Of a stretch of DNA of 64,000 nt, positions 1,336 through 19,514 are shown one piece after another (the first letter of the stretch is position 1; every line of letters starts with the position of its first letter). The position numbers and the translations under genes are program-made. The DNA lies in the NCBI GenBank assembly GCA_902727895.1, contig CACVAP010000053.1, positions 1 to 64,000 of the forward strand, written 5' to 3'. Source of the DNA: an uncultured Sulfurovum sp. (GTDB lineage Bacteria > Campylobacterota > Campylobacteria > Campylobacterales > Sulfurovaceae). The notes under the pieces are model-generated. The model did not search any database and was not told the origin of the DNA. It saw only the letters and a program-made list of their open reading frames with translations.

Positions 1336-3480
1336 TTACGCCATAAATATTACAGGTGTAATAATTGGATAACGTTTTTTGGTTCTAACTACAAATTTAC
1401 GTACAATACTTGCAATATTTTCTTGAATAACTTTAGGACTAGCTGTTTGTTTTTCTTCTGCATTGATTAAGAAAGTATCAATGATATTTTCGATTTCATG
1501 TGCAAAACGTTTGCCCTCTTTTTCTGGAACAAGTCCTGAAGATGAGATAACTGCTTTACCAATAAGTTTTTTTGTCTCTTTATTCACTTGCATCGCAATG
1601 TTTACAATACCATCTGATGCTAGTTTTTGTCTGTCTTCAACAACATCAGCTTTGATTTCTTTGTTATTTTGGTTATCAATATAGCTTTTACCTGTTTTAA
1701 CAGTTTTCACTTTTTTAAGATACTTAGTTGCTATCTCAATTTGATCACCATCACTCATAAGTAAGATATTTCTAGGGTCAACACCACAATCAATAGCTGT
1801 TCTTGAATGCTTATAGATATGGTTGTACTCACCATGAACAGGCAAGAAGAATTTAGGCTGGATTAATCTTAAAATTAATTGCTGTTCACCTTTTGAAGCA
1901 TGACCTGAAACGTGAATGTTTTCAAAGTCTTTATAACGTACTGTTACGCCAGCTTTTACAAGTTTGTTCATAAGTGAAGATACTGAACCTTCATTCCCTG
2001 GAATAGCATGAGCAGAAATGATGATAGTATCAGAAGGCTTTAGCTTTACATGTCTATGTTCATTGGCTGCCATTCTTGAAAGTGCTGCCATAGCCTCACC
2101 TTGTGAACCAGTGGTTACAATCAGTACTTGCTCTTCTGCATACTTTTGTACTTCATGTGCTTCAATGAAATGTTTATCAGGTAAATCAACATAGCCAAGT
2201 CTTCTTGTCGTTTCAATGTTACGCTCCATAGAACGTCCAATAACACAAATCTTTCTACCAGCTGCAATTCCTCTTTCCATTGCTTGGTAAACACGGTGTG
2301 TATTTGAAGAGAAAGTAGACATGATAACACGTCCTTTTGCTAAACTAAAGAGGGTGTCAAATGTTTTACCAACAACAGCTTCAGACTTTGTATACCCTGG
2401 GTTATGAGAGTTAGTACTGTCAGAGAAAAGACACAATACTCCTTTTGAACCATAATGAGCAAAACGTTGTAAGTCCATTGTTTGGTTATCAATAGGTGTA
2501 TGATCCACTTTAAAGTCAGCCGTGTGAATAAACGTTCCTACTTTAGACTCAATTGCCAATGAACAAGCATCAATAATAGAGTGCGTGTTATGCATCCACT
2601 CTAATTTAAAAGTACCAATGTCATATTGAGTTCTTTTTGTTACATAGTTAAAAAGTTTTACATTTTCCATAAGACCATGTTCTTGAAATTTGTTCTCAAT
2701 CATTGCCAATGCTAGAGGTGTTCCCCAGATTGGAAATTGAAGTTCTTTATATAGGTAAGGAACTGCACCAATATGATCTTCATGAGCATGCGTAATAATT
2801 ACAGCAACAATTTTGTCTTTAATAGCATGTAAGTAAGAAAAGTCTGGCACTAAAATATCAACACCATGCATGGTTTCATCTGGGAATGACATACCAACAT
2901 CAATAACAAAGGCACATTCATCATCTTCCATAACAGCCATGTTTCCACCAATTTCACCAAGACCACCCAGTGGGGTAAATCTTACTTTGTTGTTGTTGTC
3001 CATATTGATTTGTTTCCATGGATTCATTCTTGCATCATTCATCGCAACGTTTTCAGCAATAGAAGTTTTCATTTCTTCAGACATTGGTCCTGGTACAAAT
3101 TTCTTAGGACGTCTTCCACCTCCACCACTGTTTTTATTATTATTTGGTTTCTTAGCATTTGGATTATTATGCTGAGGCTTTTTAGCATTTGGGTTTGGCT
3201 TGTTATGTTGAGGTTTTTTAGGTTGTGAAGTTTTTTGGTTTGGATTAGGTTTAACTATTTGTTTATTACCATTAACTTCTTTATTAGGTTTCTCAACATT
3301 ACCATTTACTTTATGCTCTGGCTGAGGCTTATTTCCATCTACAGCTTGATTATTATTTTGTTGTCTTCTATGAGGGTTTCCAGCTCTCTTAGGTCTTTCT
3401 GGACGGTCTCTTCTTGGTTTTTTTTCTTCAGAAGTATTTTGGGGTGTTTTATTCTCATTGTTTTCATTATTATTTTCCAT
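1336..3480 (-). CDS. rnj: Ribonuclease J with long low-complexity N-terminal extension
   Basis: Metallo-beta-lactamase/beta-CASP motifs (ITHAHEDHIGAVPYL, HTADFKVD, SGHASKGEQ, HGEYNH); Asn/Lys/Pro-rich N-terminal ~130 aa. Confidence 0.93.
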   Translation of the reverse strand: MENNNENNENKTPQNTSEEKKPRRDRPERPKRAGNPHRRQQNNNQAVDGNKPQPEHKVNGNVEKPNKEVNGNKQIVKPNPNQKTSQPKKPQHNKPNPNAKKPQHNNPNAKKPNNNKNSGGGGRRPKKFVPGPMSEEMKTSIAENVAMNDARMNPWKQINMDNNNKVRFTPLGGLGEIGGNMAVMEDDECAFVIDVGMSFPDETMHGVDILVPDFSYLHAIKDKIVAVIITHAHEDHIGAVPYLYKELQFPIWGTPLALAMIENKFQEHGLMENVKLFNYVTKRTQYDIGTFKLEWMHNTHSIIDACSLAIESKVGTFIHTADFKVDHTPIDNQTMDLQRFAHYGSKGVLCLFSDSTNSHNPGYTKSEAVVGKTFDTLFSLAKGRVIMSTFSSNTHRVYQAMERGIAAGRKICVIGRSMERNIETTRRLGYVDLPDKHFIEAHEVQKYAEEQVLIVTTGSQGEAMAALSRMAANEHRHVKLKPSDTIIISAHAIPGNEGSVSSLMNKLVKAGVTVRYKDFENIHVSGHASKGEQQLILRLIQPKFFLPVHGEYNHIYKHSRTAIDCGVDPRNILLMSDGDQIEIATKYLKKVKTVKTGKSYIDNQNNKEIKADVVEDRQKLASDGIVNIAMQVNKETKKLIGKAVISSSGLVPEKEGKRFAHEIENIIDTFLINAEEKQTASPKVIQENIASIVRKFVVRTKKRYPIITPVIFMA

Positions 3481-4279
3481 CTATATTATCCTTGTTTAAT
3501 TCATTATATAAGTGATGATACATAGATGTCTCAGCTTCATGAGGTCGAATAGTTAGACTTATTCCCAGCTCTGTGAGTAGAGCTTCAATTTTATCTTTAG
3601 GGTAGTGGGTACTCAAGTTTTTAGAAAGTTTCTTTCTTGGTTGCTTAAATGCGACCTTTAAAAAATCTTCAAAATCTTTATTGTCTTCACTACGATTTTT
3701 ACATATTAAAAGAATGGCAGAAGTTATTTTTGGTGGTGGAACAAAGTTTTCTGCTCCAACATCAAAGAGAAGCTCTCCAAAACCTACTGTTTGTGTTAAA
3801 ACAGAAAGTCCTGAAAAAGCTTTTTCCCCTGGTTGTGCTGAAAATTTTTCAGCTACTTCTTTTTGAACCATAACCAATACCGATTGGCAGTGTTCATCTT
3901 TTAATGCTTTCAAAATAATATTGGTGGCAATATAGTAGGGTAAATTGGCTACTAAATGATAATCTTCATTTAGTAACGAACCTTCTTCCCAATGTTTTAG
4001 CACATCTCCACAATTTATTTTTAGCTTGTCCGTGTGGATGGCATCGCTAAAAGTATTTTGTAGATGTACACATAATCTTTTATCAACCTCAAATGCTGTG
4101 ACATTTCGAGTCAGAATTAACTCTTTGGTTAAATCACCTAAGCCAGGCCCAATTTCTGCAACCTTCAAGTTGTCGTTGGGAATCGATTGGATGATTCGTT
4201 TAATTATTGCGTCATTTTTTAAAAAGTTTTGACCGTATCTTTTGTTTGCAAATTCTGATAAGTTTTCAATTTTATTCAT
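3470..4279 (-). CDS. rsmA: 16S rRNA (adenine1518-N6/adenine1519-N6)-dimethyltransferase
   Basis: KsgA motifs RYGQNFLKND, EIGPGLGDLT, NLPYYIA; overlaps rnj start by 11 nt. Confidence 0.93.
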   Translation of the reverse strand: MNKIENLSEFANKRYGQNFLKNDAIIKRIIQSIPNDNLKVAEIGPGLGDLTKELILTRNVTAFEVDKRLCVHLQNTFSDAIHTDKLKINCGDVLKHWEEGSLLNEDYHLVANLPYYIATNIILKALKDEHCQSVLVMVQKEVAEKFSAQPGEKAFSGLSVLTQTVGFGELLFDVGAENFVPPPKITSAILLICKNRSEDNKDFEDFLKVAFKQPRKKLSKNLSTHYPKDKIEALLTELGISLTIRPHEAETSMYHHLYNELNKDNIDGK

Positions 4280-4314
4280 TCTACACCATTCTTACTTAAT
4301 ATATAGTTATCTAT

Positions 4315-4336
4315 TTTGACTATTTGGCTATAATTT
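4315..4336 (+). promoter_or_regulatory. Putative sigma70 -10 region for hisF
   Basis: TTGACTATTTGGCTATAATTTT, TATAAT at 4329-4334. Confidence 0.45.
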
Positions 4337-4380
4337 TAGCATAATTAATGTAGGTAAACACTGCTTAAGTAAGGAAAAGA

Positions 4381-5145
4381 ATGGAATATTTTGCAAAACG
4401 CATAATACCTTGTCTCGATGTGGACAATGGACGCGTAGTAAAAGGTGTAAACTTTGTAGGGCTAAGAGATGCTGGTGACCCTGTAGAAGTAGCGAAACGT
4501 TATAACATAGAAGGTGCAGATGAAATTACTTTTTTAGACATTGGTGCAACCCATGAAGGTAGAGCTACCATTGTGGATGTGGTCAGAGAAGTAGCCAAAG
4601 AAGTTTTTATACCTTTAACTGTTGGTGGTGGTATTCGAGAACTCAATGACATTTATAAACTTTTAAATGTTGGTTGTGACAAAGTGAGCATTAACTCAGC
4701 AGCCATTAAAAGACCAGAGTTTATTAATGAAGGGGCAAAGCGTTTTGGTTCTCAATGTATTGTGGTTGCCATAGATGCAAAAAAAGTTTCTGAAAACAAA
4801 TGGAACATCTTTACACATGGTGGAAGAAATGACACGGGCATAGATGCTATTGAATGGGCGAAAGAATCTTATGAACGAGGAGCTGGTGAGTTGCTTATTA
4901 CTTCTATGGATTCAGATGGAACCAAAGCTGGTTTTGCGAATGATTTAAATTCACGTATTGCAGAAATCGTAAATATTCCTATTATTGCTTCAGGTGGTGC
5001 TGGTACGATGGAACACATGAAAGAGGCTTTTACAAAAGGAAATGCAGATGCAGCTTTAGCAGCTTCTATTTTTCACTTTAGAGAAATAGATATTATGGAT
5101 TTAAAACATTACTTACGTGATGAAAAAATTCCAGTGAGGATATAA
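4381..5145 (+). CDS. hisF: Imidazole glycerol phosphate synthase cyclase subunit
   Basis: [31 protein letters not shown] and full-length HisF. Confidence 0.97.
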
Positions 5146-6988: not shown

Positions 6989-7942
6989 CTATTCTTCTTC
7001 GATTTTGGAACCTGTTGAAGTAAAAAACTTCCGTTTCTCTTTTGCACAAATCTCTTTCTTGGCTTCTAAAAAATCAACCCTTGTAAATATACTATATTGA
7101 TTTCCATAAGGAAAATGTAAAGCATGTGCATGTAGGAGTAGGCGAGTAGCACCTGTCTCTATGGAACGCTCTTCATCACTTATGTTCATGTCAAGATACT
7201 TGTCAGAAGCTTCAAATGATGTTCCATAAATTGGGTCACCTAGTATAGGATGTTTCACGTGAAACAAATGAATACGTATCTGATGTAGTCTTCCTGTATG
7301 AGGTTTACACTCTACTAAGGTAGTATCTAATTCTTCATCGTACTCTAGGGGTATGAAATCTGTAGTCGCCTTCTTACCCTTCTCGCAAATCTCTACTTTA
7401 TGCTTTTTAGTGGTGTAGTCATTACGTACACAGATAGAAGCTTCTACGGTAAAAGGTTCTGTCAATTTTCCTGTTACCCATGCTAAGTATTGTTTCTTAA
7501 TGGTCTTCTTCTCAAAAGAACCTTTTAAAAAACGTTCTGCATCTTTATGACGTGAGGCAAGAAAAAGACCAGAAGTTTCCATGTCTATTCTATGTGTACC
7601 ATTGGCATTTTGTCCAGAGTGTGTTCTGACTTCATCAAGCATTGAGTATTCAGTTGCCATTGTATTTGGATGGACGAGTACGCCAGAAGGTTTGTCAAAA
7701 ACTAAAAAGTCCTTGTTGACAAAGATAGGTTTTGCTCCTCGGCTCTTTGGCTCAAAGTAAACGACTTCAATATCACCTTCTATAATGGCACCTGTATCAA
7801 AAATAGATTCACCATTAATTATCACACGACCTCTAGCAATAAGTCGTTGTGATTCTCCTTGGGTAAAGTTGAATTTATGCATAATATATAGAAATGCTTT
7901 AATAGGTTTTTCTACATGGAAAGGACGTTTTACGAATGGCAT
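6989..7942 (-). CDS. RluA-family pseudouridine synthase
   Basis: S4-like N-terminus; GTHRIDMETSGLFLASR and PHTGRLHQIRIHLFHVKHPILGDPIYG. Confidence 0.92.
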   Translation of the reverse strand: MPFVKRPFHVEKPIKAFLYIMHKFNFTQGESQRLIARGRVIINGESIFDTGAIIEGDIEVVYFEPKSRGAKPIFVNKDFLVFDKPSGVLVHPNTMATEYSMLDEVRTHSGQNANGTHRIDMETSGLFLASRHKDAERFLKGSFEKKTIKKQYLAWVTGKLTEPFTVEASICVRNDYTTKKHKVEICEKGKKATTDFIPLEYDEELDTTLVECKPHTGRLHQIRIHLFHVKHPILGDPIYGTSFEASDKYLDMNISDEERSIETGATRLLLHAHALHFPYGNQYSIFTRVDFLEAKKEICAKEKRKFFTSTGSKIEEE

Positions 7943-8019
7943 ATTTTTACCTCTTTTTTAGTCGAATTGGATAGAATTCTATCATAAAAATCTAACACTC
8001 TATGTGCAAGGAATGAGAA

Positions 8020-9348
8020 ATGGTAGAACGATACGCAAGACCCGAGATGGAAGAAAAGTGGACACAACATGCAAGATACGCAGCATGGCTTGAAGTTGAA
8101 AAAGCAGCTGTAAAAGCTTGGGCGAGACTTGGAAAGATTCCTCAAGACGATGCAGACAAAATTGTTAAAAATGCTACTTTCTCAGTTGAGCGAATCGAAG
8201 AGATTGAAGCGATTACTAGACATGACTTAATTGCTTTTAATACTTCTGTTTCAGAATCATTGGGTGAAGAGTCAAGATGGTTCCACTATGGTATGACATC
8301 TTCGGATGCAGTTGATACTGGTGTAGCACTTCAGATGAAAGCTTCATTAGAAATTATTATTGCTGATACAAAGATGCTAATGGAGTCAATTAAAAAACGT
8401 GCCCTTGAACATAAGATGACACTTATGGTAGGTAGATCTCATGGTATTCATGGAGAGCCTATTACTTTTGGTTTGACACTGGCTGTTTGGTATGATGAAA
8501 TGGCAAGACATTTATTAAACTTAGAGCAGACTATGGATGTTATTGCAGTAGGTCAAATCTCTGGTGCTATGGGTAATTTTGCACATGCACCACTTGAGCT
8601 TGAAGAATATGCGATGGAAGAGTTAGGGTTAAAACCTGAGCCTTGTTCAAACCAAGTTGTTCATAGAGATAGATATGCAAGACTTGCAACAGCATTAGCA
8701 ACCATGGCTTCTTCTATTGAAAAGTTTGCCGTACAAGTTAGACACTTACAAAGAACAGAAGTATATGAAGCAGAAGAGTTCTTTGCCAAAGGTCAAAAAG
8801 GTTCATCTGCAATGCCTCATAAAAGAAATCCAATTCTTACAGAGAACATTACAGGACTTGCAAGAATGATTAGAGCTTACGCAGCACCTGCTATGGAAAA
8901 TGTTGCGTTATGGCATGAGAGAGATATTTCTCATTCATCTACAGAAAGATTCTGGTTACCAGATGCATTCATTACAACTAACTTTATGATGCACCGTATG
9001 AACAATGTTATTGCTAACTTAACGGTAATGCCAGAGAATATGATGAAGAACTTGAACCTAACAGGTGGATTGGTATTCTCTCAAAGAGTATTACTTGAGT
9101 TACCTCTTCAAGGTGTATCAAGAGAAGATGCTTATAGAATTGTTCAAAGAAATGCCATGAAAGTTTGGGAAGAGATTCAACAAGGTAAAGCAAGTACCAA
9201 TGAAAAAGGGGAATCACTTTACCTTTTACACTTACTAGCAGATGAAGAACTTGCTGAGTCATTAAGTGAAGAGCATATTAGAGAGTGTTTCAATTTTGAT
9301 TATTACACTAAAAATGTAGATGCAATTTTCAAAAGAGTTTTTAAATAA
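8020..9348 (+). CDS. purB: Adenylosuccinate lyase
   Basis: GSSAMPHKRNPI signature, full-length PurB. Confidence 0.97.
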   Translation: MVERYARPEMEEKWTQHARYAAWLEVEKAAVKAWARLGKIPQDDADKIVKNATFSVERIEEIEAITRHDLIAFNTSVSESLGEESRWFHYGMTSSDAVDTGVALQMKASLEIIIADTKMLMESIKKRALEHKMTLMVGRSHGIHGEPITFGLTLAVWYDEMARHLLNLEQTMDVIAVGQISGAMGNFAHAPLELEEYAMEELGLKPEPCSNQVVHRDRYARLATALATMASSIEKFAVQVRHLQRTEVYEAEEFFAKGQKGSSAMPHKRNPILTENITGLARMIRAYAAPAMENVALWHERDISHSSTERFWLPDAFITTNFMMHRMNNVIANLTVMPENMMKNLNLTGGLVFSQRVLLELPLQGVSREDAYRIVQRNAMKVWEEIQQGKASTNEKGESLYLLHLLADEELAESLSEEHIRECFNFDYYTKNVDAIFKRVFK

Positions 9349-9357
9349 AATATATTA

Positions 9358-9436
9358 TGTCGGCTAAAACCGATTCCTATTAGGTAGTTAATTTTAATAT
9401 AATTTGAAGTTCGTAGGGTTGGCTTTAGCCAACGTT
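9358..9436. repeat. Inverted pair of REP-like palindromes (BIME-like)
   Basis: Copy 2 CGTAGGGTTGGCTTTAGCCAACGTT (9412-9436) with GTAG foot; copy 1 (9358-9384) is its imperfect reverse complement ATGTCGGCTAAAACCGATTCCTATTAG. Confidence 0.6.
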
Positions 9437-9540
9437 ATTAAATATAGATAAATAATTTAAATAAATAATAGATAATAATTTTTAACAAATTACAAAGTAA
9501 ATTTTAAGTAATATAATAGATATAATCAAGGAGAAGTTAC

Positions 9541-11928
9541 ATGATAAGAGTTGTAAAAAGAAATGGTCGTGTTGAGACTTTAGACATCACAAAAATTCAA
9601 AAAAATACTTCATCTTCAGTAGAAGGTTTAGAAGGCGTAAGTCAAAGTGAACTTGAAGTTGACGCTAATTTACAGTTTCAAGACATGATGACTTCTGAAA
9701 ACATTCAACAGACACTTATTAAGACAGCTGTTGATAAGATAGACATCGACAAGCCTAACTGGACGTTTGTGGCCTCTAGGCTCTTCTTGTATGATTTATA
9801 TCATACAGTAGGACGTAATGTAGGTGGAACTAAAGGAGAAGCTTACTTCCATTTAACGAAGTACTTTGAACGTGGAGAAGCAGAAGGAAGAATTCTTCTT
9901 GGTTTAAAAGACAAGTATGACCTTGATGATTTAAATGACTATTTACAACCTGAACGTGATTTACAGTTTAACTACCTTGGTATTAGAACACTTTACGACC
10001 GTTATTTACTTAAAGACAAAAATGGCGTTCCCATGGAACTTCCTCAACAACTCTTTATGGGGGTTGCGATGTTCTTGGCACAAAATGAATTTGATTGTCA
10101 AACATGGGCAAAAAAGTTTTATGACATTTTGTCAAAGTTTGAAGTTATGGCTGCAACACCAACCTTGTCAAATGCACGTACACCTAGACACCAGTTGTCA
10201 TCATGTTACATTGGTTCAAGTCCAGACAACATTGAAGGTATTTTCGATGTTTACAAAGAGATGGCACTGCTTTCTAAATTTGGTGGTGGAATTGGTTGGG
10301 ACTGGTCACAGGTTCGTGGTATGGGTTCATTTATTGATGGACATAAACATGCAGCAGGTGGAATTGTACCGTTCTTAAAGATTGCCAACGACGTTGCCAT
10401 TGCAGTTGACCAACTTGGAACACGTAAAGGTGCTATTGCTGTTTACATTGAACCTTGGCACATTGATGTACGTGATTTCCTTGATCTTAAAAAGAACTCG
10501 GGTGAAGAGCGAAGAAGAGCACATGATCTTTTCCCTGCTTTATGGTTAAATGACTTGTTTATGCAACGTGTTGAAGAAGATGGACGTTGGACACTTTTTG
10601 ACCCGTATGAAGTTAGAGAGTTAACAGACATGTATGGAAAAGAGTTTGAAGCACGTTACCTAGAGCTAGAAGCTGGGACAGATGATATTGCTAGAGAGAC
10701 CATTTCGGCTAAAGGGTTATGGAAAGAAATTTTACGTTCATACTTTGAAACAGGTAACCCATTCTTAACTTTTAAAGATACAGCAAACAAGTCAAACCCT
10801 AACAAACATGCAGGAATTATCCGTTCTTCAAATCTTTGTACAGAGATTTTCCAGAACACAGCACCAAATCACTATAAGATTAAATTGACTTACAGTGATG
10901 GAACAGTTGACGTTTTTGAAGAAGAAGAAATGTTAACCGTAGACAATGGTATGACAAAGCCAGCTAAGAAAGTGACAGCACTTGATGGTTTAAATGGTAA
11001 ACAAGTTTGGATGGTAGACAAAGAGTTAACTGATGGCGATACAGCTGTTTGTAACCTAGCATCAATCAACCTTTCTAAAATCCATACAAATGAAGACATA
11101 GCGAGAGTTGTACCAACAGCCATTAGAATGCTTGACAATGTTATTGACTTAAACTTTTATCCATTGGCAAAAGTTAAAAAGACAAATGAGAAGTCACGTT
11201 CTATTGGTCTGGGTGTTATGGGTGAGGCACAGATGTTGGCTGAAGAAAAAATTGTTTGGGGTTCAAACGAGCATTTCTTTAAAATCGATGAAGTGATGGA
11301 ATCAGTCTCTTACCACGCTATTAAATCTTCATCTGACTTGGCAATTGAAAAAGGACAGTATCCTACTTTTGAAGGTTCAGACTGGTCAAAAGGAATTTTC
11401 CCAATTGATAATGCGAACGAAGAAGCCTGTAAACTTGTTGAACGTGGTGGACTTTTTGGGTATACCCATGATTGGGCAAAATTGAAAGAGAAAGTAAAAA
11501 CAGATGGAATGCGTAATGGTTACTTAATGGCTGTTGCTCCAACTTCATCAATCTCTATTTTGACAGGAACAACACAAGCGATTGAACCAGTTTACAAACG
11601 TAAATGGTTTGAAGAAAACTTGTCAGGACTTATTCCTGTATGTGCACCAAAATTGTCAGCAGACACTTGGGGTTACTATACACCTGCTTATGATCTTGAT
11701 CAAAATGTGTTGGTTAAAGCTGGAGCTATTAGACAAAAATGGATTGACCAAGGTCAGTCGCTTAATATTTTCATTACACTTGATAAAGCATCAGGTAAGT
11801 ACTTAAATGAGATTTACATGAATGCATGGAAGTTTGGGTTAAAGTCAACTTACTACCTAAGAAGTCAATCGCCTGAAACTTCTGATGATGTTGAAGACCG
11901 TTCTCAAGAATGTGTTGGATGTCAATAA
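9541..11928 (+). CDS. nrdA: Ribonucleoside-diphosphate reductase, alpha subunit
   Basis: ATP-cone N-terminus (IRVVKRNGRVETLD), NLCTEI, CNLASINL, C-terminal CVGCQ. Confidence 0.96.
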   Translation: MIRVVKRNGRVETLDITKIQKNTSSSVEGLEGVSQSELEVDANLQFQDMMTSENIQQTLIKTAVDKIDIDKPNWTFVASRLFLYDLYHTVGRNVGGTKGEAYFHLTKYFERGEAEGRILLGLKDKYDLDDLNDYLQPERDLQFNYLGIRTLYDRYLLKDKNGVPMELPQQLFMGVAMFLAQNEFDCQTWAKKFYDILSKFEVMAATPTLSNARTPRHQLSSCYIGSSPDNIEGIFDVYKEMALLSKFGGGIGWDWSQVRGMGSFIDGHKHAAGGIVPFLKIANDVAIAVDQLGTRKGAIAVYIEPWHIDVRDFLDLKKNSGEERRRAHDLFPALWLNDLFMQRVEEDGRWTLFDPYEVRELTDMYGKEFEARYLELEAGTDDIARETISAKGLWKEILRSYFETGNPFLTFKDTANKSNPNKHAGIIRSSNLCTEIFQNTAPNHYKIKLTYSDGTVDVFEEEEMLTVDNGMTKPAKKVTALDGLNGKQVWMVDKELTDGDTAVCNLASINLSKIHTNEDIARVVPTAIRMLDNVIDLNFYPLAKVKKTNEKSRSIGLGVMGEAQMLAEEKIVWGSNEHFFKIDEVMESVSYHAIKSSSDLAIEKGQYPTFEGSDWSKGIFPIDNANEEACKLVERGGLFGYTHDWAKLKEKVKTDGMRNGYLMAVAPTSSISILTGTTQAIEPVYKRKWFEENLSGLIPVCAPKLSADTWGYYTPAYDLDQNVLVKAGAIRQKWIDQGQSLNIFITLDKASGKYLNEIYMNAWKFGLKSTYYLRSQSPETSDDVEDRSQECVGCQ

Positions 11929-12081: not shown

Positions 12082-13146
12082 TTACTGAAGATAAAACCTT
12101 GCTTTTTCCATCCCATTAAACTCAGTCATCTTTACCATGGTGTAAGGCATCATGTCTTCAAATACAATTGTGTCTCCTATCTGTAAAGGCTCTGTAAAAT
12201 AGTATTTACCAATGAGGTCACCTTGTAGACAAGAATTTCCACTAAGTTCATAGAAGTAGGGTGTCACTTTTTTCTGAGTATTTTTTACTTGGAGTGATTG
12301 ATTGACTATGGCGACATCAAGTAAATGGGTTTCAATAGAAGTGTCAAGAATAGCAACCTCAATATCTTCTGTAACGACAATGTCTAAGACAGTTGTCATA
12401 AAGTCTCCACAGCCCTTAGTTACCGTTTCTCCTGGTTCAAAATAAAGTTTTATATTTGGGTATTTTGTCTGGAAATTATCAAGTAGTTTTACAAAGTTAT
12501 TCACATCATAATTGGCATCTGTAAAGTTATGTCCTCCACCAAGATTAATCCATTTTAGTTGTGGTAAAACTTTTTGATAGTATTTTACAATGTGTTCAAG
12601 AAGTAAACTAAGACCTTCTGTTTTATCTTGAAATAGTGCATGAAAGTGTAAGCCTTCTAGTTCTTCAAATTGACTTTTATTGTCATGGTATATGTCTAAA
12701 AAATCAACAAAATCAACACCCAATCTTGAAGAATTTAGATTAGGATTACAATGGGTTGGAATGGCTAAAGAGAGTTTAGGATTAATACGTAATCCTTTAG
12801 AAACAGGAAGTGACAAGAACTTTTGCCATTGTGTCAAAGAGTTTAAAGAAAGGGTTGAAATATTTGGAATCATCTCTTTTAAAACTTCTTCTTTAAAAGC
12901 AGGAGCATAGAGGTGAACTTTTTTAGCATTGGCTTTTTTAGCTATGTCTAACTCTTTAGGACTGGTGACACTCATGCCTGAGAGTTTAGCGCTTATTATG
13001 GGTAAGACAGTGTCTTGATTAAAACTTTTTACTGTATGCAAGATGTGAATATTTGCTTTTTCTTCTAACTCATTTAATTTTTTGAGGTTATGTATGAGCT
13101 TTTTTTCATACATCACAAAGTAAGGGGTTTGTATGGTGTTACTCAT
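12082..13146 (-). CDS. nspC: NspC-like carboxynorspermidine/carboxyspermidine decarboxylase (ORF track start 13179; start at 13146 preferred)
   Basis: Type III PLP-barrel decarboxylase; HTVKSF, NLGGGH, EPGE, YELSGNSCLQGD; 8-nt ATGAGTAA overlap with the upstream gene. Confidence 0.85.
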   Translation of the reverse strand: MSNTIQTPYFVMYEKKLIHNLKKLNELEEKANIHILHTVKSFNQDTVLPIISAKLSGMSVTSPKELDIAKKANAKKVHLYAPAFKEEVLKEMIPNISTLSLNSLTQWQKFLSLPVSKGLRINPKLSLAIPTHCNPNLNSSRLGVDFVDFLDIYHDNKSQFEELEGLHFHALFQDKTEGLSLLLEHIVKYYQKVLPQLKWINLGGGHNFTDANYDVNNFVKLLDNFQTKYPNIKLYFEPGETVTKGCGDFMTTVLDIVVTEDIEVAILDTSIETHLLDVAIVNQSLQVKNTQKKVTPYFYELSGNSCLQGDLIGKYYFTEPLQIGDTIVFEDMMPYTMVKMTEFNGMEKARFYLQ

Positions 13147-14659
13147 ACCAAACATCCCATCCTTCGTTATAGTATTCAATGAGCTTGTGGTTACTAAGTT
13201 TGTTAGGTTCTACCTCAACTTGGGCAATGTCTTTTTCAAAAATTTCCATACGCGTTAGAACATCTTTATTGAGATATTTTAAGTCGTCTCTTGGTGTGTA
13301 CTTTTCAAAGTGAATAGGAAATTTAGAAGCCATCACGAAACCCCATTCTCCAAAACTTGGTACATAAGTATGGTAGCCCTTTGTTTCAAGTCCTGTACTT
13401 GCCATGGTTTCTTTTATACTCCAAAAAGCTTTTGGGGTAAACATGGGTGAAGATGCTTGGGTTACCATGACTCCAGAACGGGAAAGGTTTGTGGCTAAGA
13501 TTTTATAAAAAACTTGAGAGTATAGACGTGAAAGAGAAATGTTGTTTGGATCGGGTAAATCTAATATAATCACGTCGTAAAGTGTCTGAGATGTTTCCAT
13601 AAACTTCCATGCATCTTGATTGATAACGGTTACCTTACTACTCTCATAAGCATTGTCATTAAGTTTACTTAGTGTTTTGTTTTCTTTGAAAATTTTGGTC
13701 ATCATAGGATCTAAGTCTACTAAGGTAATATTTTCTACGTCATCATACTTTAGTACTTCACGTAGCGCCATACCATCTCCTCCACCAATGATGAGTATGT
13801 TTTCATGTTTAGGACTGTGGAGCATAGCAGGGTGAACTAAAGACTCATGATATCGGTGTTCATCAATACTATCAAACTGAATGGCTCCGTTAATATAACA
13901 TTGAAAACGACCATTGTTCCCTGTAATCACTATCTTTTGATAAGGTGTTTGTGTTGCGTAAATAATGTTGTTTTTATAGAGCTTATTCTCCAATAAAGTA
14001 GTTAGTTTACTCGATTGCCAAAAACCTAACACTAAGATGACAAAAACTGTCAAGAGGTAGAGAATGTATTTTTTTCCAAGTAGCTCACGAAAAATATACC
14101 AAGACATGGTCGCTACAAAAAGGTTGAGTAATCCAAAAAGAAAAGAAGTTTGCATAAGACCCAGTTGTGGTACTAAAACCAAAGGAAAAAGCAAAGAGGC
14201 AAAGAGTGCACCTATATAATCTACTGTAAAAACGTTAGAGATATTTGTTTTAAGTGAAAAACTCTCTTTGAGTATACGAATAATAAGAGGAATCTCTATT
14301 CCTAACATTGAACCTAGAAAAACGGTAACTAGATAAAGAAAAGGGTCATAGTTATTTATGTAGGCAAAAGCAAAAAACAAAATAAAGGCAGAAAAACCAC
14401 CTAAAAGGGCAATACTAAGTTGAAGTTGTACAAAAGCACGTTCTAAATGATTCTCTATAAAACGTGAAAGCCAAGCACCAATACCCATAGAAGACATAAA
14501 CAGCCCGATTACCAACGAAAAGTGGTAAATAGAGTCTCCTAGTAAGTAAGAAGAGAGCGTTCCTTCTAAGAGCTGGTAAACAAGTCCTGAGATAGCAATA
14601 AGAAAAGTACCAAAGAGTAGGGCTACTTCTTTGCTTTTACTGTCTATAGATGTTGACAT
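13139..14659 (-). CDS. Membrane-anchored spermidine synthase-like aminopropyltransferase
   Basis: Several N-terminal TM segments then SpeE fold (YQKIVITGNNGRFQCYINGAIQFDSIDEHRYHESLVHPAM, IIGGGDGMALREVLKYD, DLPDP). Confidence 0.9.
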   Translation of the reverse strand: MSTSIDSKSKEVALLFGTFLIAISGLVYQLLEGTLSSYLLGDSIYHFSLVIGLFMSSMGIGAWLSRFIENHLERAFVQLQLSIALLGGFSAFILFFAFAYINNYDPFLYLVTVFLGSMLGIEIPLIIRILKESFSLKTNISNVFTVDYIGALFASLLFPLVLVPQLGLMQTSFLFGLLNLFVATMSWYIFRELLGKKYILYLLTVFVILVLGFWQSSKLTTLLENKLYKNNIIYATQTPYQKIVITGNNGRFQCYINGAIQFDSIDEHRYHESLVHPAMLHSPKHENILIIGGGDGMALREVLKYDDVENITLVDLDPMMTKIFKENKTLSKLNDNAYESSKVTVINQDAWKFMETSQTLYDVIILDLPDPNNISLSRLYSQVFYKILATNLSRSGVMVTQASSPMFTPKAFWSIKETMASTGLETKGYHTYVPSFGEWGFVMASKFPIHFEKYTPRDDLKYLNKDVLTRMEIFEKDIAQVEVEPNKLSNHKLIEYYNEGWDVWYE

Positions 14660-14872
14660 TTAACGAATGGCTGCTGAGATAATCATACCAAGGGCAATAA
14701 TCATTGAACCCAATACAATTGCTAAGGCAATGTTGCCATCATCTGCAATTTTTCGGTTAATAGAGTATTTGGTTGCTACTTCTACGAGTAAGAGTACCAA
14801 TGCAAAAACTGCGATACCTAGACCAGCATAGATGAGTACAGAGAATAGACCTGAGATGTGAGATGTTTCCAT
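14660..14872 (-). CDS. DUF350 (YjfL-type) small membrane protein
   Basis: 70 aa, two TM segments; typical DUF350 length and NRKIADDGNIALAIVLGSMIIALGMIIS pattern. Confidence 0.75.
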   Translation of the reverse strand: METSHISGLFSVLIYAGLGIAVFALVLLLVEVATKYSINRKIADDGNIALAIVLGSMIIALGMIISAAIR

Positions 14873-14899
14873 TATATTATTTCCTTGTAATTTAGTGTA

Positions 14900-15130
14900 T
14901 TATTTTCCATAGCTGTAACCTCCAGAATTGTAAGAGGAACCACCACTCCAACCAGAAGAGTTACCAGTACGGTAAGAGTTTGAACGCACACTTGAGCTAG
15001 AAGAACTACCTGTACGGTGTATATTCTCTTTTTCTAAGGTCTCAAGACGTTCTTGCCCTGCACCTGTGTAGGTGAAGTAGCTAACAGCTCCACCAGTAAT
15101 TAAGAAAAAGAGTATTATAAATTTTGCCAT
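14900..15130 (-). CDS. Small single-TM protein with Ser/Gly/Tyr-rich tail
   Basis: N-terminal hydrophobic segment, tail SSSSSVRSNSYRTGNSSGWSGGSSYNSGGYSYGK. Confidence 0.6.
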   Translation of the reverse strand: MAKFIILFFLITGGAVSYFTYTGAGQERLETLEKENIHRTGSSSSSSVRSNSYRTGNSSGWSGGSSYNSGGYSYGK

Positions 15131-15139
15131 AAGAACTCC

Positions 15140-16480
15140 TTAGTTACCAAAAGCTATGATTATAGCTATGGCAATGATTATAAGAACAATCGTGATTATT
15201 CCACTTTTTGTATTATGTTCTAAATCTTCATTTTCTATATCAATACCTCGTTCATAGGCAAGTTTTCGTTTGTAACGCCATTGGTAAAACTTGTAAAGTA
15301 TCCATAGTATAAAGGTAAAAGCAAAGAACCAGCCAAGGTAGTTAAGCCTTGAAGAAGCTTCATTAATACGTATAAAGAGTGTAGACTTGATGCTTGGATT
15401 AATAGGTTTAATACTTAGATGGTAGGTACCAAGTTCTTCTAGGTTTAATGATACTCGAACTTTTTTACTATCTTTGTCCCAAGGGTGTAGTTTCTTTTCT
15501 ATATGATTGGTCTTGCTGTTAAATATATAAGCAGACTGTGGGGTAAGTGAAAAAATAATGTTCTTGTCTTTATGGATTTGTAAGTTAAAGTTGTTGAGTT
15601 CCTTAGCTTTAGAGGCGCGTAGTTCCAAGTCAACCAAGTATTTACTACTATTTACAGTAAAGTCAGTACTCTTTACAGCCTGATTGTCAGCAGAAATACT
15701 TTTAATGAGTTTTCCTGAACCATCTACATTGCCAACCAGAGCAAATAAGGCAATAATAAAAAGAACGAAAAAAGCAATGTAAGAGAGTGACTTTAAAAAT
15801 GGACGTTTAAAAGGTTTTAAGACATTAAATGTTTTAGCTTCATCTTCTGCTTCAATGTTGAAAGCATCGTAGACAGTTGTACTGTCAAGGTACTCAGACT
15901 TATAGTACTCAATTTCTGAGTTTGTTTTTTCAGCACTGATGCCAAAAGGTGGGTTAATAAGGTCAACAAAGTAAGTTTTGTCATTACGTTTGGCTAACCA
16001 TGTAAGTTCACCTTCTATGTAAACGATTTTTGCTTCATAGTGGTCAAATGGTGTGAAGTCTTTTCGGTCAACACCTATGCTAGAGTGTTGTGTTAACTCT
16101 GACCAAGTTACATTTGGAAAGGTTCGGTTACGTTTGGAGTAGATAAGGTGACCATCTTCATAGGTTAAGTAGGCATAACCATAGAGAGGAGAAAATAGTA
16201 AGAAGTCTGTCCATTCTCCATGTGGGTACTCTCTTGCAGCATAGGTTACACGACCTATAATCGTATAGTCAATATCTTTAATTCGACCAACCATTCCGAT
16301 TGCAAAAGGCAGTTTTTGTGATTCTTTAACATTTTTAAAATTACTGAGTACTTTGTAATTGTCATTTAAGTCAAGCACAGATTTACAGTATGAACAAGTG
16401 ATACTTTCAACACGTCCCCCACCAATGAGGCTAAGAGGTGCTGCACAGTTGGTACATTTTATGCTTTTTACTTGGCTCAT
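15140..16480 (-). CDS. Zinc-ribbon, DUF4178-like, C-terminal membrane-anchored protein
   Basis: IKCTNCAAPL...ITCSYCKS zinc ribbon; GEWTDFLLFSPLYGYAYL DUF4178-like core; TM segments. Confidence 0.75.
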   Translation of the reverse strand: MSQVKSIKCTNCAAPLSLIGGGRVESITCSYCKSVLDLNDNYKVLSNFKNVKESQKLPFAIGMVGRIKDIDYTIIGRVTYAAREYPHGEWTDFLLFSPLYGYAYLTYEDGHLIYSKRNRTFPNVTWSELTQHSSIGVDRKDFTPFDHYEAKIVYIEGELTWLAKRNDKTYFVDLINPPFGISAEKTNSEIEYYKSEYLDSTTVYDAFNIEAEDEAKTFNVLKPFKRPFLKSLSYIAFFVLFIIALFALVGNVDGSGKLIKSISADNQAVKSTDFTVNSSKYLVDLELRASKAKELNNFNLQIHKDKNIIFSLTPQSAYIFNSKTNHIEKKLHPWDKDSKKVRVSLNLEELGTYHLSIKPINPSIKSTLFIRINEASSRLNYLGWFFAFTFILWILYKFYQWRYKRKLAYERGIDIENEDLEHNTKSGIITIVLIIIAIAIIIAFGN

Positions 16481-17094
16481 TAGTTTAGGACCTCAATATC
16501 CAGTGGATCAATCCATTTACCTTTAAAGGTTTGGCTTGAGTTCTTTGTAAACTCAAGTGTTACTAGATGTCCACCTCCTTCACTAAGGTGAATGTATTGA
16601 TGCTTCTCATCTATGTTAATGTTTTCAGGAAGTTCACCTTCAAAACCAATGCAAGTACCTTCACCTTTTTCGGTGACAATGTATTTACCATGACGAGATC
16701 CAACTTTAAATTTAGAAAAGTCTTTAAAGGGAAGAGATAGTTTATTTTTTTCTTCTAAAACAAAATCACCCTCATCAATACTTAGCCAAAATTCTTGATT
16801 TTTTTCATCTCTTAAGAACCACTCTTCCCAAAATCCACGACCATAACCATAACGTATTTTCCCCAGTGCTGTAAAAGTTTTATTTTGTAATTTGAACATT
16901 TTATGTAGTTCAATAAGTGAGGGTTCAGGACTTAAAGTAGAACCTTCTCCAATAAGTCGAACACTTTTATCTTCTAGAAAAATAGCTGAGCTACAAGATT
17001 GGCATTTGATAAGTTTTGAATACTTAAAAAAGATGTTTAGTTTATCTCCACATTGTGGACAATTATAGGTAAGGTTATCATTTTGGTAGAGCAT
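16480..17094 (-). CDS. Zinc-ribbon DUF4178-like protein
   Basis: YNCPQCGDKL...IKCQSCSS zinc ribbon; GRGFWEEWFLRDEKNQEFWLSIDEG. Confidence 0.75.
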   Translation of the reverse strand: MLYQNDNLTYNCPQCGDKLNIFFKYSKLIKCQSCSSAIFLEDKSVRLIGEGSTLSPEPSLIELHKMFKLQNKTFTALGKIRYGYGRGFWEEWFLRDEKNQEFWLSIDEGDFVLEEKNKLSLPFKDFSKFKVGSRHGKYIVTEKGEGTCIGFEGELPENINIDEKHQYIHLSEGGGHLVTLEFTKNSSQTFKGKWIDPLDIEVLN

Positions 17095-17134
17095 AGTAGT
17101 AAGAAGCTCCTATTATAAGCTATGGTTTTTAAAG

Positions 17135-17310
17135 TTATTTGTATAAGCTATATTACTACACGTAATATACACGTGAAAAATGTATAATTCCACCATGACT
17201 AACATAGCTAAAAATATAAGCTAACTAAGCTTATATCAATTTCATTATGATTTCCCTAAAATTAATGATTTTCTTCTTTCCTTTTATTATCTATGTTAGG
17301 ATTTAATCCC
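17135..17310. repeat. Copy 1 of tandem ~180-bp structured noncoding element
   Basis: Head TTATTTGTATAAGCTATATTACTACACGTAATATACAC; stem CTAACATAG/CTATGTTAG; inner hairpin ATATAAGCT-AACTA-AGCTTATAT. Confidence 0.65.
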
Positions 17311-17358
17311 AAGTTGGATTGATATTACCCTTAAAGTTATAATCCCTTATTTTAATAA

Positions 17359-17543
17359 TTATTTGTATAAACTATATTACTACACATAATGTACACAGAA
17401 AGTTAGTATACTACATGAAGCCTAACACGAGAAGGTGTTTTTTTAAGCTAGTGAAGTTCACTAGGCTTATGATGTAAATAATACTCCCTGTATACATTAT
17501 ATTCTTCCCTCCCCTTTTACTTCTTGTGTTAGGACTAAATTCC
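17359..17543. repeat. Copy 2 of tandem ~180-bp structured noncoding element
   Basis: Head 35/38 identical to copy 1; stem CCTAACACGAGAAG/CTTCTTGTGTTAGG; inner hairpin AAGCTAGTGAA/TTCACTAGGCTT. Confidence 0.65.
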
Positions 17544-17983
17544 TAACCTTGTGTATTTATCATCATGATTGAGAAACCATTAATATAATTCCAAAAACTT
17601 TGTAAGTCTTCGTCTTTAACAGATGATTCTAATGGCTTGAGTGCTTGTTCAAAACAAGTAAGCCAATGTAACCTTCCCTCAGCAGTAATGGTAAAAGGCA
17701 TATGTCTCCCACGCATTCTTGGCATTCCATGTCTTTGATTAAAATAAGCAGGACCACCACAAATTTGAATGAAAAAATCAGCAGAAGTTTGCGCAGCTAT
17801 TTCCATACCTTCAGCATCTTCAGGAGGAAAAATAGAGCGAATGGCACTTTTGTCTAAGCAGGCATAAAATCTAGAGAGTAAATCACGGATTCCTTGTTCT
17901 CCAACTTGAGGAAAAAATGTTAAGTTTGGTTTCTGTACAGGTGGGATGTAGTTTGCATTGTGTGCAATAATTGAATAGTTCAT
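17543..17983 (-). CDS. Truncated hemoglobin-family (bacterial globin) protein
   Basis: GGPAYFNQRHGMPRMRGRHMPFTITAEGRLHWLTCFEQAL globin E/F-G helix pattern. Confidence 0.85.
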   Translation of the reverse strand: MNYSIIAHNANYIPPVQKPNLTFFPQVGEQGIRDLLSRFYACLDKSAIRSIFPPEDAEGMEIAAQTSADFFIQICGGPAYFNQRHGMPRMRGRHMPFTITAEGRLHWLTCFEQALKPLESSVKDEDLQSFWNYINGFSIMMINTQG

Positions 17984-18119
17984 TATTAACCTTATATTGT
18001 ATAGGGCTATTTATAGTGGAAAATAACTTAATACTTAATAAATAAAATTGACTAAATATTCTTATTATAGAATTATATATATTCGATATAATGTAACATA
18101 AAAAAATAAGGAAAAACAA

Positions 18120-18623
18120 ATGCTAACACTATATTCAGAGGGAAGTTCTTTCAAAAAGAAAGTAACAGTAGTTGTTATTTGGTTAGTAGCGTTGGCGTTG
18201 AGCTTCTTGTTACTAGAACTTATTCGGTATGAGGGAAGTTCACTTTTAATGAAGGCTTTCCCTAGCCTAATAGGTCTTTTTATGATTGCTGGAATATTAT
18301 TGCGTTGTAAGTTTGCGAGAGCATTTACACTCATAACCATTTATATAATTGCTTTGTTTCCCATTGTCGCAAACTTTTTAGTAGATGGTTCAATTCTTCT
18401 TTTTTCGATGGATACAGAAGCATTATTTACGACTACAGAAATATTAATGACGAATATAATTTGGGCTTTACTCTTTATTGTACCCATTTACTTTTTGTCT
18501 AATAATAAGTCTATGGATATCTTTTTTATTGAATCTAACCCTATCGAACATCTCTTTTTTGTAGCTGTTGCAATAGGGCTGATATTTGCCTATACTAATT
18601 ACTATACATTAGCATTGTTGTAG
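18120..18623 (+). CDS. Hypothetical multi-TM membrane protein
   Basis: 167 aa, about five hydrophobic segments; RBS AAGGAAA. Confidence 0.55.
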   Translation: MLTLYSEGSSFKKKVTVVVIWLVALALSFLLLELIRYEGSSLLMKAFPSLIGLFMIAGILLRCKFARAFTLITIYIIALFPIVANFLVDGSILLFSMDTEALFTTTEILMTNIIWALLFIVPIYFLSNNKSMDIFFIESNPIEHLFFVAVAIGLIFAYTNYYTLALL

Positions 18624-18626
18624 ATT

Positions 18627-19514
18627 TTAGTCTATCAGATGATTTAACTTTTCATATTCATTAAGTTCTTCAATCCAAGAAGGCTTAATGGCTTCAAATC
18701 CATATCTTGCACCAAGAATCATCCCTGCTATCATCCCACGTGCTGCTGAGTCACCACCTGCTAATACATTTGCTTTTAAGAGTGCTTCAAAGTCATCATA
18801 ATAATTTATAAGTAAATAAATTGTTGAAGCCAAAGCATCTTTGATATCACAGGTACGACCTAAGGCTCTAATGGCTTCATTGGTAGGTATGTCTTTGGCT
18901 TCAAATGCAGCATTAACAGCTGTGTTAACAGTTTCGCCATAAAATGCTGCACGTTCTTTTATTGTTGTTACAACATCTAAGTTGTGAATCATGGCTAAGG
19001 TAACTTCTGTAATGTATTTACTAGCATCTATCATGTCTTTACTCATGTGGGTTAAACAGGTATGAAATTTCACTGATTCTATGATATCATCAACATTCTC
19101 AATACTAAAAATAATAGCAGCATGTCTTCCTACAATAGAAAGATCTTGAGAATCTGAACCAGCAGCTAAAAATGAAGTTCCTGCGTTCATATTAGCTAAA
19201 CTGGTAGTTGTAGCACCATCTTTATAGCCCGTATACTCAGTCATTTTGTCTTGCCAAATCTTTCCAAAAGCAAATGGATCGTAGATTTCAGCATCGTTCA
19301 TATACTCTAAAAGCCATTGACTTTGGTCACCATAATGTGTTAAATCACCAGCTTTTTTTGTAGGATGGTAAGGACATAAAGGGTCATTTAATCCAGAGAA
19401 GTTAAGCATTGAACTTTCTAATTCTCTTTGGTCATAAAGCCAATGACCACCCAAGCTATAAGCATCTGCGAGTAATGAACCCCAAATGAGTCCTTTTAAT
19501 TTGTCTTTTTTCAT
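18627..19514 (-). CDS. ADP-ribosylglycohydrolase family protein
   Basis: GLIWGSLLADAYSLGGHW...; ANVLAGGDSAARGMIAGMILGARYG. Confidence 0.88.
   Translation of the reverse strand: MKKDKLKGLIWGSLLADAYSLGGHWLYDQRELESSMLNFSGLNDPLCPYHPTKKAGDLTHYGDQSQWLLEYMNDAEIYDPFAFGKIWQDKMTEYTGYKDGATTTSLANMNAGTSFLAAGSDSQDLSIVGRHAAIIFSIENVDDIIESVKFHTCLTHMSKDMIDASKYITEVTLAMIHNLDVVTTIKERAAFYGETVNTAVNAAFEAKDIPTNEAIRALGRTCDIKDALASTIYLLINYYDDFEALLKANVLAGGDSAARGMIAGMILGARYGFEAIKPSWIEELNEYEKLNHLID

Follow-up and report, generated by a model that had tools for sequence, protein, structure and literature searches.

A divergent NspC paralogue may take the place of SpeD in a membrane aminopropyltransferase operon of Sulfurovum and other Campylobacterota

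An operon of an uncultured Sulfurovum sp., lying in the 64,000-nucleotide stretch of DNA that we analyzed (the window), places a gene for an NspC-type decarboxylase behind that for a membrane aminopropyltransferase. We suggest that the operon may be a membrane-anchored aminopropylation module with an exchanged decarboxylase. In other phyla, the aminopropyltransferase (SpeEm) would transfer an aminopropyl group from dcSAM made by SpeD; the module would have reached the Campylobacterota without SpeD, and a duplicate of NspC (NspCp) would have taken over the decarboxylation. The source genome (G000) comprises 2.96 Mb in 105 contigs, and its closest relatives are Sulfurovum MAGs.

Six genes, separated by short gaps or overlapping, occupy positions 12082 to 17094 of the minus strand in the order DUF4178a, DUF4178b, small S/G-rich protein, DUF350, SpeEm, and NspCp (Table 1); an earlier note had proposed these genes, their order, strand, and coordinates, all of which agree with the open reading frames and with the Pfam and NCBIfam assignments. 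Both DUF4178 proteins have two CxxC pairs at the N terminus, which reads as a zinc ribbon in sequence, the profile matches there being weak and below cut-off. The 76-residue protein has no family match in Pfam or NCBIfam, and a small S/G-rich gene occupies the same slot in many loci. NCBIfam assigns SpeEm to the PRK03612 polyamine aminopropyltransferases (NF002956; 629 bits against a cut-off of 472), and the Spermine_synth domain, the GGGDG and DxxD motifs of the SpeE family, and the N-terminal membrane domain are all present, in keeping with the multispan aminopropyltransferase described earlier. NspCp matches the Pfam Orn/DAP/Arg decarboxylase domains (E 1e-8).

Table 1. Features of the operon and its upstream region (positions in the window)
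Feature	Position	Strand	Description
Upstream repeat copy 2	17337..17396	-	60 nt like copy 1, 224 nt apart
Upstream repeat copy 1	17113..17172	-	Putative regulatory region of operon; 82% identical to copy 2
DUF4178a	16480..17094	-	Zinc ribbon + DUF4178, 204 aa; first gene of operon; PF13785 E 5.9e-13
DUF4178b	15140..16480	-	Zinc ribbon + DUF4178, hydrophobic C-terminal segments, 446 aa; PF13785 E 1.9e-13; conserved
Small S/G-rich protein	14900..15130	-	76 aa; single N-terminal hydrophobic segment
DUF350 half-length protein	14660..14872	-	70 aa; PF03994 E 3.1e-11, first half of profile
SpeEm, membrane aminopropyltransferase	13139..14659	-	506 aa; N-terminal helical membrane domain + Spermine_synth; PF01564 E 2e-40
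NspCp, divergent NspC paralogue, predicted PLP decarboxylase	12082..13146	-	354 aa; start inside end of SpeEm

The repeat upstream of the operon is A+T-rich and perhaps represents a duplicated promoter or regulator site; its only two copies in the genome are both local, which excludes a dispersed element. Genes for a truncated globin, a 167-residue membrane protein, and an ADP-ribosylglycohydrolase precede the operon (17543-19514), and the same three are found in L059. At the other end, SpeEm and NspCp overlap by 8 nt, ATGAGTAA, with the NspCp ATG at 13146 and the SpeEm stop codon TAA at 13139-13141. This ATG is probably the true start, since it fits the alignment, rather than the listed TTG at 13179, which gives too long an open reading frame. 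Most NspCp-linked loci have such an overlap, of 8 or 11 nt, between the NspCp start and the SpeEm stop. The overlap noted earlier is real, but taken by itself it gives only slight grounds for the coupling of the last two genes deduced from it, because the ATG is formed by the codons of the conserved C-terminal Trp-Tyr-Glu of SpeEm and is thus partly forced.

The best 80 SpeEm loci were taken from 84,980 species genomes scanned. The order DUF4178a-DUF4178b-small gene-DUF350-SpeEm recurred, among the matches listed, in Campylobacterota, Thiotrichales and other Gammaproteobacteria, Rhodobacterales, and an Elusimicrobia MAG, and the same core order is annotated on Novosphingobium plasmid p1. DUF4178a is the conserved first gene in the Campylobacterota, Thiotrichales, and Rhodobacterales loci. 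Such conservation is far above chance, and the genes are not scattered in relatives; SpeEm itself is patchy across the family. The statement in the earlier note that DUF350, DUF4178, and spermidine synthase-like proteins recur together is supported by these neighborhoods and by what we have drawn from Ravi et al. 2024 (PMC11237479). Variants were also seen: a 266-residue protein precedes DUF350 where DUF4178 genes are expected in L018:5324-6124 and L065:2274-3074, with a serine-rich tail in L065; the DUF4178 pair lies downstream of NspCp in L069; and in L021:6778-9666 and L072, SpeEm occurs without the rest of the operon and is followed by genes for a 241-residue protein and a response-regulator-like protein.

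NspCp is not the housekeeping enzyme. It scores 300.7 bits against TIGR01047 (nspC), below the curated cut-off of 409, and a canonical NspC (529 bits) is encoded elsewhere in the genome, at G000:C83:42941-44065, as is, on contig C38, a carboxyspermidine dehydrogenase (E 2e-157 to structure 8deb) that is the single match of its kind, with no second copy. The double set of canonical NspC and NspCp is present in the NspCp genomes searched, G068 excepted. The 18 NspCp proteins all group as one clade (98/88) in a 53-sequence tree, outside every canonical NspC sampled; within that clade, the Helicobacteraceae proteins L075 and L076 (419 and 375 bits) are the earliest to branch off and have diverged least. 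Judged by sequence, NspCp is an additional, divergent NspC paralogue. Among 249 Campylobacterota genomes, only G000 (582 bits) and G004 (495 bits) score as NspCp, the others reaching at most 399, and both carry SpeEm. A search for plasmid-borne NspCp returned only ordinary NspC, at identities of 35% or less. The earlier note had assigned the NspC-type enzyme to the module and had named chance adjacency of a housekeeping NspC as the case against; with the housekeeping copy on C83, that case fails. Separate housekeeping genes for NspC and the dehydrogenase lead us to reject a housekeeping spermidine operon. Although the database names, aminopropyltransferase and carboxynorspermidine decarboxylase, suggest an ordinary spermidine operon, there is no SpeD, and SpeEm is membrane-bound and patchy in the family; we find that explanation very hard to credit.

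The association of NspCp with SpeEm is close. Among the matches listed, NspCp adjoins or closely trails SpeEm in 18 of the 24 evaluable Campylobacterota SpeEm loci, every NspCp found is SpeEm-linked (18/18), and none lies near SpeEm in 57 loci of other phyla. The gap between the two genes appears to be an insertion hot spot. In L060 a DNA cytosine methyltransferase gene and an HNH-type gene (7807-9986), and in L061 an ATP-binding regulator-like gene (3447-4901), are inserted there, and NspCp is retained in both. These observations bear on the explanation that NspCp is a bystander or a moonlighting NspC duplicate that hitchhikes with the operon for reasons of regulation or assembly. In its favor, NspCp is missing from six Campylobacterota genomes that have SpeEm, and its sequence changes faster than that of SpeEm or of canonical NspC; against this stand the linkage in 18 loci, the fact that NspCp stayed in place despite the insertions in L060 and L061, the invariance of its catalytic residues, and the parallel divergence of NspCp and SpeEm (r = 0.90 between pairwise identities over 18 protein pairs, to which common descent contributes). 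On balance, we regard a mere passenger as improbable.

No match to SpeD (PF02675) was found in 23 Campylobacterota SpeEm genomes (12 + 11, among the matches listed) or in eight relatives. The profile of class 2 AdoMet decarboxylase (PF01536), considered as a hidden source of the activity, matched nothing in the 23 genomes but nothing in the control genomes either, so that its silence is uninformative. One exception, G068 (L073), is a Desulfurellales MAG that has SpeD plus a short contig carrying a Sulfurovum-like SpeEm and NspCp; this SpeEm contig groups with Sulfurovum, the MAG has no canonical NspC, and the combination is probably a binning error, or else a transfer. In other phyla, SpeD is present in 35 of the 38 SpeEm genomes searched (among the matches listed), G086, G090, and G103 having no match. 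In 11 Rhodobacterales loci it adjoins SpeEm directly on the 3' side (ten convergent pairs, plus L128 with both genes on one strand). It lies within a few genes of SpeEm in L136, L137, and L138 (on the same strand in the latter two) and follows SpeEm directly in the Alteromonas annotation; in Novosphingobium, the annotated order is DUF4178-DUF4178-small-DUF350-SpeEm-FAD amine-oxidase-like-speD. The variant with an FAD amine-oxidase-like gene and speD also occurs in L138:1245-5801, L136, and L264; the FAD protein of L138 has a Tat-like N terminus, and the Novosphingobium operon additionally has SPFH and rhodanese genes. In G082 and G101, SpeEm is the sole Spermine_synth protein and the adjacent SpeD the sole AdoMet decarboxylase, and an NspC-type gene is present besides (418 bits, over the cut-off, and 398, just under it). 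SpeD and SpeEm there appear to form a self-contained pair, apart from spermidine synthesis, which makes dcSAM the likely donor of SpeEm.

The earlier note had remarked that no PspA, SpeD, or carboxyspermidine dehydrogenase lies in the window and that the composition is therefore an unusual variant. For PspA and SpeD, the absence extends to the whole assembled genome; the dehydrogenase exists elsewhere in it. PspA (PF04012) had no match in G000 or in 12 related Campylobacterota genomes, so that a PspA partner elsewhere in the genome is excluded and the module does not need PspA in these Campylobacterota. The composition is indeed unusual, but that account had missed both the separate NspCp clade and the significance of the genome-wide absence of SpeD, which is informative because SpeD partners SpeEm in other lineages; together, they turn an unusual composition into a specific substitution hypothesis.

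If the decarboxylase was exchanged, SpeEm itself shows no sign of it. The donor-pocket residues Q261, H271, D295, D315, D349, D367, and D370 are invariant in 81 sequences, and the pocket is identical in NspCp-linked, NspCp-less, and SpeD-group SpeEm; the few fixed differences are conservative and located elsewhere, so that a donor switch visible in the SpeEm sequence is ruled out. The active-site check proposed earlier thus finds both the DxxD motif and the donor pocket kept. The plant counterpart of D295, Asp103 of spermidine synthase, holds the dcSAM amino group and is believed to repel the SAM carboxylate (PMC3725402). In a midpoint-rooted SpeEm tree, the Campylobacterota form one group (96/93) with Thiotrichales as neighbors. 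The simplest reading, in which the direction of change is suggestive only because of the midpoint rooting, would be that the operon was transferred into a SpeD-less lineage, that NspCp was recruited early, and that about three losses of NspCp came later.

The changes lie in NspCp. All 18 proteins keep Lys40, His169, Glu237, Asp277, Cys306, Asp310, and Tyr335, and with them the catalytic PLP Lys, the stacking His, and the Glu, Cys, and Tyr of the NspC family; retained, too, is the Asp that coordinates the terminal amine of the substrate in carboxyspermidine decarboxylase (PMC11866407). Common to the 18 are changes in the flap (Tyr140 to Cys, in Cl numbering, and Cys143 to Asn or Ser) and in the specificity helix (Pro275 to Leu or Thr), together with Thr305 to Ser and Pro349 to Ala. 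Both the flap and the specificity helix bear on which substrate is chosen, and in three of the changes the side chain becomes smaller; the substrate has therefore likely changed and is possibly bulkier, under either of the chemical orders considered below. The structure models (mean pLDDT 88 for NspCp and 83 for SpeEm) confirm the folds only.

We judge the odds to lean slightly toward NspCp having taken over the decarboxylation by SpeD for the SpeEm module, a substitution that is well supported by comparative genomics and hypothetical as biochemistry. Two orders of reaction would give the same aminopropylated product, on an acceptor that we infer to be a polyamine or a membrane component. In order A, SpeEm would transfer the 3-amino-3-carboxypropyl group of SAM to the acceptor and NspCp would then decarboxylate the product, which is normal NspC-family chemistry; in order B, which we slightly favor, NspCp would be a PLP-dependent AdoMet decarboxylase that supplies an unchanged SpeEm with dcSAM. 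SAM and carboxyspermidine have in common a 3-amino-3-carboxypropyl head beside a positive center. The preference for order B follows from the unchanged donor pocket and from D295, whose plant counterpart would repel the SAM carboxylate; both suggest that SpeEm still uses dcSAM. The retained amine-binding Asp, for its part, suits a carboxy-amine substrate, as in order A, at least as well as SAM. That NspCp is a PLP-dependent AdoMet decarboxylase, a nonhomologous replacement of SpeD dedicated to a membrane aminopropyltransferase, we put forward tentatively, the chances being against it. Any role for DUF4178 and DUF350 in the module, such as the sensory or scaffold one offered in the earlier note, is conjectural.

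The same residues would also suit an additional decarboxylase of carboxy(nor)spermidine or carboxyspermine that draws on the shared dehydrogenase and makes the polyamine acceptor of SpeEm or a special polyamine, with SpeEm using another donor or reaction. NspCp retains every catalytic residue as well as the amine-binding Asp, the genome has a carboxyspermidine dehydrogenase, and a bacterial dehydrogenase/decarboxylase pair can make spermine and thermospermine (PMC11999265). This explanation, however, leaves SpeEm, with its unchanged pocket, without dcSAM; moreover, which product is formed depends mainly on the dehydrogenase rather than on the decarboxylase (PMC11999265), so that a dedicated decarboxylase copy would be unnecessary, and G000, with no second dehydrogenase, has no enzyme set aside for supplying NspCp with another carboxy-amine. 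We consider it unlikely. The main evidence against the exchange itself comes from the six Campylobacterota SpeEm genomes with neither NspCp nor SpeD (G025, G051/L072, G058/L077, G010, G029/L082, and L071), of which L077 and L071 retain the greater part of the operon; a strict need for NspCp is thus contradicted. The exchange is also essentially one event in one phylum, so that the complementarity of SpeD and NspCp is phylogenetically confounded and the co-occurrence counts are not independent.

If NspCp does replace SpeD, then either dcSAM is the product of a PLP enzyme or SAM itself serves as donor for an enzyme of the SpeE type. To our knowledge, all characterized AdoMet decarboxylases are pyruvoyl enzymes and all characterized aminopropyltransferases use dcSAM, and one of these two universals would then fail. 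Either outcome would provide a genetic handle on a widespread DUF4178/DUF350 membrane operon, and would mark the module as a device for aminopropylation that does not depend on spermidine synthesis. E. coli speD-deletion strains for such complementation already exist (PMC11999265 and PMC10407285).

In comparison with known systems, NspCp shares its fold (TM about 0.9 to 3n29 and 9eaf) and catalytic residues with the NspC/CASDC family (TIGR01047), from which it differs in its score below the family cut-off, its changed flap and specificity helix, and its separate clade. The catalytic domain of SpeEm, with its GGG[D/E]G and DxxDP motifs, best matches thermospermine synthase and the Thermus triamine/agmatine aminopropyltransferase, which are soluble and lack the membrane domain that SpeEm has. 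In the parts of PMC11237479 available to us, a related operon unites PspA, DUF4178, DUF350, and an aminopropyltransferase-like (spermidine synthase) domain fused to a 7TM domain, and AdoMet decarboxylase appears in related variants, with no description of NspC there; the operon in the window likewise brings together DUF4178, DUF350, and a membrane-fused Spermine_synth domain, but it has two DUF4178 genes and an NspC paralogue in last place, and its genome lacks PspA, which sets it apart from the CesT/Tir-PspA form. The SpeD-linked operons of Novosphingobium p1, Alteromonas pAMCP48-600, Rhodobacterales, Chloroflexi, and Acidobacteriota have the same SpeEm and, where the window has NspCp, carry SpeD with or without the FAD amine-oxidase-like gene. 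By its gene content, the operon can be classed as the Campylobacterota (Sulfurovum-type) form of a membrane operon of known type, whose new element, the rest being already known, is a clade-specific NspCp decarboxylase gene in the place of SpeD.
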